Below are positions 15,325-18,892 of a DNA stretch of 64,000 bases, in pieces; within the stretch, counting starts at the first letter, position 1, and each line of letters begins with the position of its first letter. Both the position numbers and the translations under genes were made by a program. Source of the stretch: Fusobacterium ulcerans ATCC 49185 (lineage in GTDB: Bacteria > Fusobacteriota > Fusobacteriia > Fusobacteriales > Fusobacteriaceae); contig NZ_LR215979.1 in NCBI RefSeq assembly GCF_900683735.1, positions 124,001 to 188,000 on the forward strand, in the 5' to 3' direction. Below the pieces are notes generated by a model, which worked only from the letters and a program-made list of their open reading frames with translations, did not search any database and was not told the origin of the DNA.

Positions 15325-15353
15325 TTGAAATAAAAGTCTTGTAGTGGTAAAAT
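15325..15353 (+). promoter_or_regulatory. Sigma-70-type promoter of the acc cluster
   Basis: TTGAAA (15325-15330), a 17-bp spacer and TAAAAT (15348-15353) lie 23 bases before the accB-like start, which leaves a very short leader containing GAGGAGG. Confidence 0.7.
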
Positions 15354-15375: not shown

Positions 15376-15789
15376 ATGAGGGGAGATATAAAGGCAGTTG
15401 AAGAATTGATGAAAGTTCTGCATGAGCAGAAACTTACAGAAATATCATATGAGGATTCTAATTTTAAAGTTACAATTAAAGGACCCCTTACTGCAGCAGT
15501 AAAGAAAGAAACAGTAAAAGAAGCTAAAGTTATAGAAAATAAAGAAGCAGTAAAATTTAAAGAGGTACTGTCTGATCATATAGGAAGATATTTCTATATG
15601 AAAAAGAATGGAGAACCTGTAATAGAAGTGGGGCAGAAAATAAAAACTGGACAGGAAATTGGATATGTTTCAACAGTTGGAGTAGATACTACTATTACTT
15701 CAAGTTATTCTGGAACTATAGAAGAAATATATATCGAGAATGGTAATCCAGTAGATTATGGAAGACCACTATTAAAGATCAAAATTTAA
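15376..15789 (+). CDS. accB: AccB-like biotin carboxyl carrier protein lacking the biotinylated lysine
   Basis: A 137-residue protein with the AccB layout. The N-terminal helix (KAVEELMKVLHEQKLTEISYED) resembles AccB, a linker follows, and then the biotinyl/lipoyl domain from about residue 66 with VIEVGQKIKTGQEI and the closing YSGTIEEIYIENGNPVDYGRPLLKI. In true carriers the hairpin between these holds EAMKM, whose Lys carries biotin. Here the aligned residues 99-103 read STVGV, so Gly102 stands where the Lys should be. The reading frame is intact on both sides, which argues against a frameshift. It is followed by an intact accC. It may be a structural or regulatory BCCP homologue, comparable to plant BADC proteins, rather than a working carrier. 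The accB symbol denotes homology only. Confidence 0.88.
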   Translation: MRGDIKAVEELMKVLHEQKLTEISYEDSNFKVTIKGPLTAAVKKETVKEAKVIENKEAVKFKEVLSDHIGRYFYMKKNGEPVIEVGQKIKTGQEIGYVSTVGVDTTITSSYSGTIEEIYIENGNPVDYGRPLLKIKI

Positions 15790-15828: not shown

Positions 15829-17181
15829 ATGTTTAAGAAAATACTTATCGCTAATAGAGGAGAGATAGCAGTCAGGATCATAAGAGCAGCAAAAGAACTG
15901 GGAATAAAAACAGTTGCTGTATATTCAGAAGCTGATAAAGAAAGTCTTCATGTGACTCTTGCAGATGAGGCTGTATGTATAGGAGGAATATCAAGTTCAG
16001 AATCATATCTGAAGATACCAAATATAATAGCAGCAGCAGAGATTACAGGAGCAGATGCTATCCATCCAGGTTATGGATTCCTTTCTGAAAATGCAAGATT
16101 TGGAAAGATATGTGAAATGCATAATATTGCTTTCATAGGACCTAGACCTGAATGTATAATAAAAATGGGAGATAAGGCAACAGCTAGAGCAACTGCCATA
16201 GAAAATGGTGTTCCTATAACTAATGGAACTGGAATAATCAAGAGTATTGCAGAAGCTAAAAAAGAAGTAAATGAAAGAATAACATACCCTGTAATGATCA
16301 AAGCCACTGCTGGTGGTGGAGGGAAAGGTATGAGAATTGCCAGAAATGATGAGGAATTAGCTGCAAATATAGTAGCTGCTCAAAATGAAGCAGAATCTGC
16401 ATTTGGAAATCCAGATGTATATATAGAAAAATTTGTAGAAGATCCTAGACATATAGAAATTCAGATAATGGGAGATAAACATGGAAATGTTATCTACTTA
16501 GGTGAAAGAGACTGTTCTATTCAAAGAAGACATCAAAAGCTTATAGAAGAAGCTCCATCATTTTCGTTACCTTACAATATCAGAAAAGCTATGGGAGAGG
16601 CAGCTGTAACTCTTGCTAAAGCTATAAATTATGACTCAGCAGGAACTTTAGAATTCCTTGTTGATAAAAATAATGATTTCTTCTTTATGGAAATGAATAC
16701 AAGAGTACAGGTAGAGCATACTGTAACTGAGATGGTAACAGGTGTAGATATTATAAAACTTCAAATAAAAGTAGCAGCTGGAGAAAAATTAAACATAGCT
16801 CAGGATGATGTTATATTATATGGGCATGCTATTGAGTGTAGAATCAATGCTGAAGATCCTGAAAATGATTTTCTTCCATCACCAGGAGTACTTACAAAAT
16901 ATATAGTTCCTGGAGGAAATGGAATAAGAGTTGACTCGCATTCATATCAAGGATATGAAATCAGTCCATACTATGATTCAATGATTGGAAAATTAATAGC
17001 TTTTGGAATAAACAGAGAGGAAGCTATTGCAAAAATGAAAAGAGCTCTAAGCGAGTATATAATTGAAGGAATAGATACTACTATTCCATTTCATTTAGAA
17101 GTATTTAACAATGAATTATATCTTGAAGGAAAAACTTCAACTAATTTCATAGAAGAGAATTTTTCTAAAAAAAATAATTAA
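15829..17181 (+). CDS. accC: Biotin carboxylase subunit of acetyl-CoA carboxylase
   Basis: A 450-residue ATP-grasp enzyme that carboxylates carrier-bound biotin with bicarbonate and ATP. The N-terminus is [20 protein letters not shown]. The glycine-rich ATP loop is [14 protein letters not shown], the [16 protein letters not shown] segment contains bicarbonate/ATP contacts, and the catalytic region is [16 protein letters not shown]. All of these look intact. The start at 15829 follows AGGAGGAAAG; the longer in-frame start at 15799 would put that site inside the gene. It forms an operon with the biotin-less AccB homologue. accA and accD are not in the window. A functional carrier must therefore be encoded elsewhere if this enzyme works in fatty-acid synthesis. 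Confidence 0.95.
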
Positions 17182-17243
17182 GTATAGTTTTTTTTAACAA
17201 AATTAGATATAATAGAATTACATAATGCATGGAGGTGTTTTCA

Positions 17244-17624
17244 ATGAATGAATTAGGAAATATAAGAATAGCTGATGATGTAGTGAAAACAATAGCTGCA
17301 AAAGCTGCAGGGGATGTAGAAGGTATTTATAAACTTGCTGGTGGAGTAGTAGATGAAGTTAGTAAGATGTTAGGTAAAAAAAGACCAACTAATGGAGTTA
17401 AAGTAGAAGTAGGAGAAAAAGAGTGCAGCATCGAAGTATTTGTAATCGTAGAATTTGGATATCCAATTTCAGAAGTAGCTCATGAAGTTCAAAAAGCTGT
17501 ATTGAAAGCAGTATCTGAATTAAGTGGACTAAAAGTTGTTGAAGTAAATGTATATGTTCAAGATGTAAAAATCAGAACAGAAGGAACTTCTGAAGAAGAG
17601 GAAGATACAGAAGAAGGATTATAA
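17244..17624 (+). CDS. Asp23/Gls24 (YqhY-like) family protein
   Basis: A 126-residue cytosolic protein of the alkaline-shock Asp23/Gls24 family: IADDVVKTIAAKAAGDVEGIY at the start, VEVGEKECSIEVFVIVEFGYP in the middle, the amphipathic helix after it, NVYVQDVKI, and an acidic C-terminal tail. The start at 17244 follows GGAGGTG. The upstream ATG at 17229 includes the ribosome site and is rejected. In Bacillus the same order accB-accC-yqhY is found, and YqhY is linked genetically to control of acetyl-CoA carboxylase activity. The next gene encodes the membrane anchor of this protein family. Its exact molecular role is not known. Confidence 0.87.
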   Translation: MNELGNIRIADDVVKTIAAKAAGDVEGIYKLAGGVVDEVSKMLGKKRPTNGVKVEVGEKECSIEVFVIVEFGYPISEVAHEVQKAVLKAVSELSGLKVVEVNVYVQDVKIRTEGTSEEEEDTEEGL

Positions 17625-17677: not shown

Positions 17678-18196
17678 ATGACTAATAAATTTCTTTTTTT
17701 TCTAGGATGGGTAGGAATATTTATATTATCGATCACTGGAATAGTATGTATTGTAATGCCGGATTTTATTGTAAAATTTAATCCATTAGACTCAACAAAA
17801 ACTAATGTTGCTATTGTTGTTATATGTGTAGCATATTTCTTGCTTTGTATCTTAAAACTTTTCTCTATGTTTGAAAAAACTGGTGATTATGAAATAAAAA
17901 CAGAAAATGGAAAAGTAACTATATCAGCAGCTTCTGTTACAAATTTTGTAAAAGAAATGTTATCTAGAGATAAAGATGTAGAAGGTATTAAAGTTTTTAC
18001 AGGAAAAAGAGGAAGAAAATTCTTTGTGAAAATAAAACTTGATATGCTTACAGATGGAAATATTGCAGAAAAGACTGCTTCTATTCAAGATGGATTGAAA
18101 AAAAGATTGGCTGATAAGATGGGATTAGAAGTTGATACTGTTGAAGTACAAATTTCTAAACTGTCAATAAAATCTCAAGATACTTCAGAAGAATAG
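17678..18196 (+). CDS. amaP: AmaP-like alkaline shock response membrane anchor protein
   Basis: A 172-residue inner-membrane protein with two N-terminal membrane segments (about residues 5-27 and 45-63) and a cytosolic Asp23-like domain from about 70 (YEIKTENGKVTISAASVTNFV, then VKIKLDM and VDTVEVQISKLSIK). In Gram-positive bacteria AmaP tethers Asp23 to the membrane. The preceding gene encodes the soluble Asp23-family partner and the next a DUF2273 small membrane protein, the usual trio. AAAGGTGG precedes the start. The family call is good; function in a Gram-negative-type envelope is inference. Confidence 0.82.
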   Translation: MTNKFLFFLGWVGIFILSITGIVCIVMPDFIVKFNPLDSTKTNVAIVVICVAYFLLCILKLFSMFEKTGDYEIKTENGKVTISAASVTNFVKEMLSRDKDVEGIKVFTGKRGRKFFVKIKLDMLTDGNIAEKTASIQDGLKKRLADKMGLEVDTVEVQISKLSIKSQDTSEE

Positions 18197-18445: not shown

Positions 18446-18844
18446 ATGAGTAGAAGATTAGCGAGGGAAGAGTTATTTAAGTTAGTATTTGAAGGGGAAA
18501 TAAATGAAGAAAATACTAAAGATATATTAGAAAGTTATTTAAAAAGAGAAGAAATTCTTCAAAATGAAAATGAGATAACTTTTATTAAAAAATATATGAA
18601 TGGAATAGCTGAAAACAATGATAAGATCCTAAAAACAATAGAAGAAAAAATAACAGGATGGAGTTTTGAAAGAATAGGAAATGTAGAAAAAGCTCTTTTA
18701 AAAATTTCTGTTTACGAGATCTTATGTGAAGATACACCTCACGAGATAGTTATAAATGAAGCAGTGGAACTTGCAAAAATGTATGGAGATGAAAAAACAT
18801 CTGAATTCATAAATGGAGTCCTTGCTAAGGTAGTTAATAACTAA
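18446..18844 (+). CDS. nusB: Transcription antitermination factor NusB
   Basis: A 132-residue all-helical protein that binds boxA RNA with NusE (S10) in rRNA antitermination complexes. Family features are MSRRLAREELFKLVFE at the start, the central WSFERIGNVEKALLKISVYEIL segment and the C-terminal HEIVINEAVELAKMYGDEKTSEFINGVLAKV. AGAAAGGAAA gives the ribosome site. It is the last gene of the acc cluster, the same accBC-Asp23-nusB order known in Firmicutes, and is followed by a strong terminator. Confidence 0.95.
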   Translation: MSRRLAREELFKLVFEGEINEENTKDILESYLKREEILQNENEITFIKKYMNGIAENNDKILKTIEEKITGWSFERIGNVEKALLKISVYEILCEDTPHEIVINEAVELAKMYGDEKTSEFINGVLAKVVNN

Positions 18845-18863
18845 ATACTAAAAATGAAATCAA

Positions 18864-18892
18864 AACAGCCGTTTTTGCGGCTGTTTTTTTTA
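18864..18892 (+). terminator. Strong Rho-independent terminator after nusB
   Basis: AACAGCCG (18864-18871) and CGGCTGTT (18878-18885) form a GC-rich stem with a 6-nt loop, followed by eight or more T. Confidence 0.95.

Follow-up and report, generated by a model that had tools for sequence, protein, structure and literature searches.

A lysine-less AccB paralogue next to accC in Fusobacteriota, a candidate non-catalytic subunit of acetyl-CoA carboxylase

What might the product of a gene in the accB position do when the residue that would carry biotin is missing? Such a gene lies at positions 15376-15789 (+) of the window, the 64,000-nucleotide stretch of the Fusobacterium ulcerans ATCC 49185 genome analysed here. 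Based on its open reading frame and domain models, it encodes a 137-aa lysine-less AccB paralogue made of an N-terminal AccB helix region (residues ~1-35), a linker (~36-60) and a biotinyl-type barrel (~61-137). Codons and alignment place the beta-hairpin of the barrel at 15670-15684 (+), where residues 99-103 (TCA ACA GTT GGA GTA) read STVGV instead of EAMKM. Gly102 (codon GGA, 15679-15681, +) stands where carriers have the biotin-acceptor lysine and aligns on Lys122 of the E. coli BCCP, and residues 90-134 of the protein contain no lysine. An earlier note on this DNA had described an AccB homologue with Gly102 in place of the biotin-carrying lysine, a preserved BCCP fold with its N-terminal AccB region, and a clean frame. 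The alignment to E. coli Lys122 confirms the first of these points, the open reading frame is indeed clean and intact, and the second agrees with the profile comparison that follows.

Compared with PDB sequences, the family profile has its best match in full-length E. coli BCCP (4hr7_B, positions 2-136, E 7e-18), a match that covers both the N-terminal region and the biotinyl barrel. The 4hr7 structure shows E. coli BCCP in complex with biotin carboxylase and is the best relative by sequence and by fold; the AlphaFold model used for the fold search was of low confidence (mean pLDDT 57, built from 4 sequences), and its top matches were E. coli BCCP, again 4hr7. Pfam Biotin_lipoyl matches the window protein with 41.1 bits. 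The AccB model TIGR00531 scores 56.7 bits, half of its curated cut-off of 115.2, and the acceptor lysine of an (E)AMKM-type hairpin is replaced by glycine, so that the protein falls outside AccB on both counts. RnfC_N also matches (window 15376-15786; 30.6 bits, cut-off 25.6), more weakly than Biotin_lipoyl, perhaps through a common nature as barrel-sandwich domains that lack an acceptor lysine. This model matches 9 of 25 family members, compared with 25 of 25 for Biotin_lipoyl and the BCCP models, and a 137-aa protein without any other domain does not qualify as RnfC.

The gene is followed on the same strand, 39 bases past its stop codon, by accC (biotin carboxylase, 15829-17181), the sole accC-type gene of the genome. 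Next come an Asp23-family protein (17229-17624, +) in the place of yqhY in the accBC-yqhY operon, another Asp23-like protein, which has hydrophobic segments at its N-terminus (17678-18196, +; a weak match, below the cut-off) and a nusB homologue (18446-18844, +) identified by sequence and gene order. The latter is probably the last gene of the cluster, and a terminator-like hairpin lies 3' of it (18862-18887, +). Upstream, a promoter-like TTGAAA-17-TAAAAT in which TG precedes the second hexamer (15325-15353, +) ends 22 bases before the ATG; this is a consensus match only, and promoter-like sites in the region as a whole are no commoner than in shuffles.

The glycine is conserved throughout the phylum. 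It occupies the lysine column in 80 of 80 alignable members from Fusobacteriota, and lysine is found there in 36 of 36 true AccB paralogues, a set that was chosen by having EAMK, all non-EAMK AccB-like sequences of these loci having joined the lysine-less set; the split exceeds chance. All four glycine codons are used among the 80 members (GGA 52, GGT 17, GGG 8, GGC 3). Three columns are invariant in 25 diverse members, Gly102 among them, and the alignment of members contains no conserved lysine at the hairpin tip across the phylum. The closest, unsaturated pairs gave dN/dS values of 0.11-0.34, similar to true AccB; the all-pairs values (dS up to 1.2, median 0.70) were set aside because distant pairs are near saturation and align poorly. 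The lysine-less protein is thus under purifying selection in close pairs. It evolves faster than true AccB or AccC, with identities between family ends of ~25-30% compared with ~40-45% and ~71%, respectively. Members from the Leptotrichia-like family and from two further genomes (G062 and G097) have a truncated 'thumb' loop in the barrel or lack it altogether (A1 columns 106-112, residues ~78-83 of the window protein); the loop is mostly retained in the family of the window.

Is there another protein in the cell that could carry the biotin? The earlier note had called for a check on a second BCCP with the motif, and the window genome (3.84 Mb, single contig) has one: a 155-aa true AccB with EAMKLMNE (C1:807170-807634) that adjoins folD and an ACT/HTH-type gene and is ~29% identical to the lysine-less protein. 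Biotin_lipoyl has three matches in this genome, namely the lysine-less protein, the true AccB and the carrier subunit of an apparent membrane CoA-ester decarboxylase. The genome encodes two biotin/lipoate ligase family proteins and a single copy each of accC (that of the window), accA and accD. A complete acetyl-CoA carboxylase can thus be built in which the other AccB is the carrier. The same single copies led us to reject a horizontally acquired second acetyl-CoA carboxylase as an explanation.

Carriers of other arrangements were seen elsewhere in the phylum. One genome (G062) encodes an EAMKLMNE AccB-type domain as the C-terminus of a 611-aa protein (L104:1436-3268), the front of which resembles the carboxyltransferase of oxaloacetate decarboxylase alpha or pyruvate carboxylase B. 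Another (G063, C94) has a 612-aa frame at the corresponding match, the likeness being one of frame length. As accC is single in both genomes, two carboxylases may share one carrier. Four Leptotrichia-like genomes (G070, G071, G076 and G078; L077, L082, L084 and L085) encode an extra AccB with EAMKLMNE in an apparent 5-oxoprolinase-type (pxp) cluster and an extra accC-type gene at another locus; we set both aside as separate from the lysine-less AccB system.

We found the lysine-less gene in 82 of 98 Fusobacteriota genomes, a count that includes one copy truncated by a contig end (G025) and one split by a frameshift (G027). The split copy (L020:1364-1791) has its frameshift at a run of A, as judged against near relatives, and is probably a long-read error. 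The accC gene lies directly downstream on the same strand in 79 of 79 testable members, with gaps of -8 to 126 bp, and 52 longer loci contain the Asp23 gene in 50 cases and nusB in 48. Completeness is 90% or more in 82 genomes: 68 of these have the lysine-less gene as well as accC, 14 have neither, and none has one without the other; the genomes are related, so that Fisher p-values overstate their independence. The 14 genomes without the pair belong to six genera in three families. True AccB follows the same presence and absence pattern as accC in these genomes, one draft excepted, and no examined locus of true AccB has accC as a neighbour. In three genomes of one genus (G016, G017 and G018; genus code g4), accA is present and accC, lysine-less AccB and true AccB are all absent. 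A scan for relatives outside the phylum with two peptide patterns, which miss most known members, returned three loci, all from Fusobacteriota, and so argues only weakly for absence elsewhere. The plasmid collection gave weak matches only (~23-40% identity), and the four records inspected at sequence level (from E. coli, Paucilactobacillus, Neochlamydia and Neisseria) all have the lysine. The earlier note had assigned this BCCP homologue without lysine to the accBC operon and likened it to plant BADC proteins, which it described as dampening acetyl-CoA carboxylase; the operon placement and the likeness are supported and strengthened by the phylum-wide conservation, the invariable linkage to accC and the separate, functional-looking AccB, and dampening is one of the rival readings below.

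The lysine-less AccB is, in our reading, likely to bind AccC as a dedicated, non-catalytic subunit of the acetyl-CoA carboxylase and to work in the manner of BADC. It would be produced together with AccC; both the N-terminal helix region and the barrel of the AccB fold are kept, but it cannot carry biotin. It would most likely sit on AccC, alone or beside true AccB, organise or stabilise the biotin carboxylase subcomplex and set the number of true carriers able to engage it, and catalysis would be left to the separate AccB with EAMKLMNE. AccC is proposed as the partner because of the adjacency of the two genes, the co-loss with accC, and the retained N-terminal region and barrel; the neighbourhood is suggestive of an interaction but proves none, and we infer AccC binding, a function as scaffold and whether activity would rise or fall. 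The fast divergence of the family is a counterpoint to a dedicated subunit, as it would likewise be expected of a loosely constrained protein.

A serious rival, although an unlikely one, is that the biotin-free protein fills AccB sites on AccC and thereby throttles malonyl-CoA synthesis, its ratio to true AccB acting as a control knob, which is how plant BADC was originally read. The AccB fold, the operon shared with AccC and the true AccB encoded elsewhere suit such a competitive dampener as well, and an inhibitory model of BADC is cited in PMC11926652. An optional brake would however be expected to be lost occasionally with accC kept, and no such loss was seen in the 68 well-covered genomes. 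Because accC is never retained without the lysine-less gene in well-covered genomes, we favour the assembly role over the dampener; the obligate co-occurrence with accC, small genomes included, agrees with an assembly subunit no less than with a dampener. E. coli AccB is a reported repressor of accBC, and the lysine-less protein might have kept this gene-regulatory side activity, with the operon rather than the enzyme as its target. Its gene is the first of the accC operon and the N-terminal AccB region is retained, but conservation and selection extend beyond the N-terminus to the barrel and Pfam detected no DNA-binding feature, which leaves autoregulation improbable.

Two further readings can be given still less weight. 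The protein could be a different type of carrier, either modified on some other residue or serving another partner (for instance with an RnfC-like barrel function), as the RnfC_N match above its cut-off in the window protein and those in 9 of 25 members might indicate. We regard this as highly improbable, since the hairpin and residues 90-134 are without lysine, no tip lysine is conserved across the phylum, Biotin_lipoyl and BCCP models match every one of the 25 members and accC is always adjacent; a biotin lysine elsewhere in the protein is excluded or very unlikely. Decay or sequencing error could account for the lost lysine and for the broken frame beside the run of A in G027. Both were rejected, their likelihood being negligible in view of an identical glycine in 80 genomes, clean frames and dN/dS of 0.11-0.34 in close pairs.

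How old is the dedicated-subunit candidate? We removed the motif columns and built a tree that contains 43 lysine-less proteins together with 37 true AccB from Fusobacteriota and 6 AccB from other lineages. In this motif-free tree, a branch with support 100/98 separates all lysine-less proteins from the rest; L101, a lysine-less protein on a long branch, is of unsure placement. The simplest reading would be a single loss of the lysine ahead of the radiation of the phylum. The lysine-less proteins share with E. coli an acidic-aromatic pair (D/E, Y/F) at positions 147-148 (E. coli numbering), and most true AccB of Fusobacteriota have lysine at 148 and often also at 147. One may speculate that the lysine-less copy is the original AccB of the accBC operon, which would fit the acidic-aromatic residues shared with E. 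coli. The broader proposal, in which AccC of the whole phylum needs an obligate, non-catalytic pseudo-carrier subunit for its assembly or control and this subunit arose once before the radiation, independently of BADC, when the AccB copy next to accC lost its biotin lysine, has in our estimate about an even chance of being correct.

Metabolic models and drug-target lists should not take the accB-position gene of the accBC operon in Fusobacteriota for the biotin carrier, as the true AccB is encoded elsewhere. If the proposed role is true, a BADC-type non-catalytic carrier homologue is no plant invention, and a simple bacterial system of few purified proteins would be available to settle the dispute between inhibitor and assembly glue. 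Our results suggest that a non-catalytic helper subunit, of a kind described so far in plants only, is built into the fat-making enzyme of these bacteria; we found no description of a bacterial lysine-less AccB in the open-access literature.

Plant BADC hairpins may likewise have a glycine at the acceptor position. BADC is a BCCP homologue with 25-30% identity to the BCCP of the same plant, lacks the biotinylation motif, coexists with true BCCP and is described as unique to the plant enzyme, and it is disputed, one set of studies seeing in it a 'glue' of BC-BCCP assembly and another an inhibitor (PMC11926652). Like BADC1-3 of the plastid heteromeric ACCase, the lysine-less AccB has no biotinylation motif, is ~29% identical to the AccB of its own genome and occurs together with a true AccB, so that it agrees with the description of BADC in both motif and company. 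Unlike BADC1-3, it is bacterial, lies immediately 5' of accC, is single-copy and is found phylum-wide. If the inference holds, it would work like BADC, to which it is likened by description and not by sequence; the matched PDB sequences include no BADC chain.

With AccB/BCCP (TIGR00531) it shares the fold, the N-terminal helix region and the place ahead of accC and Asp23/YqhY, and it differs in the invariant glycine at the acceptor lysine, the low model score and the thumb, which some Fusobacteriota have lost. The accBC-yqhY operon of Bacillus subtilis is listed for Fusobacteria as well, in a source that in the part consulted does not mention the missing lysine of the accB-position gene (PMC5437119). 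The gene order is common to both loci, but in Fusobacteriota the accB-position gene encodes no biotin carrier. A structural role of a BCCP barrel in the assembly of biotin carboxylase, apart from biotin carriage, has a precedent in Chloroflexus aurantiacus BC1: there the barrel connects BC dimers, and BC activity falls when the barrel is disrupted (PMC11077971). Unlike the lysine-less AccB, the barrel of Chloroflexus BC1 is fused to BC and is biotinylated on Lys553.
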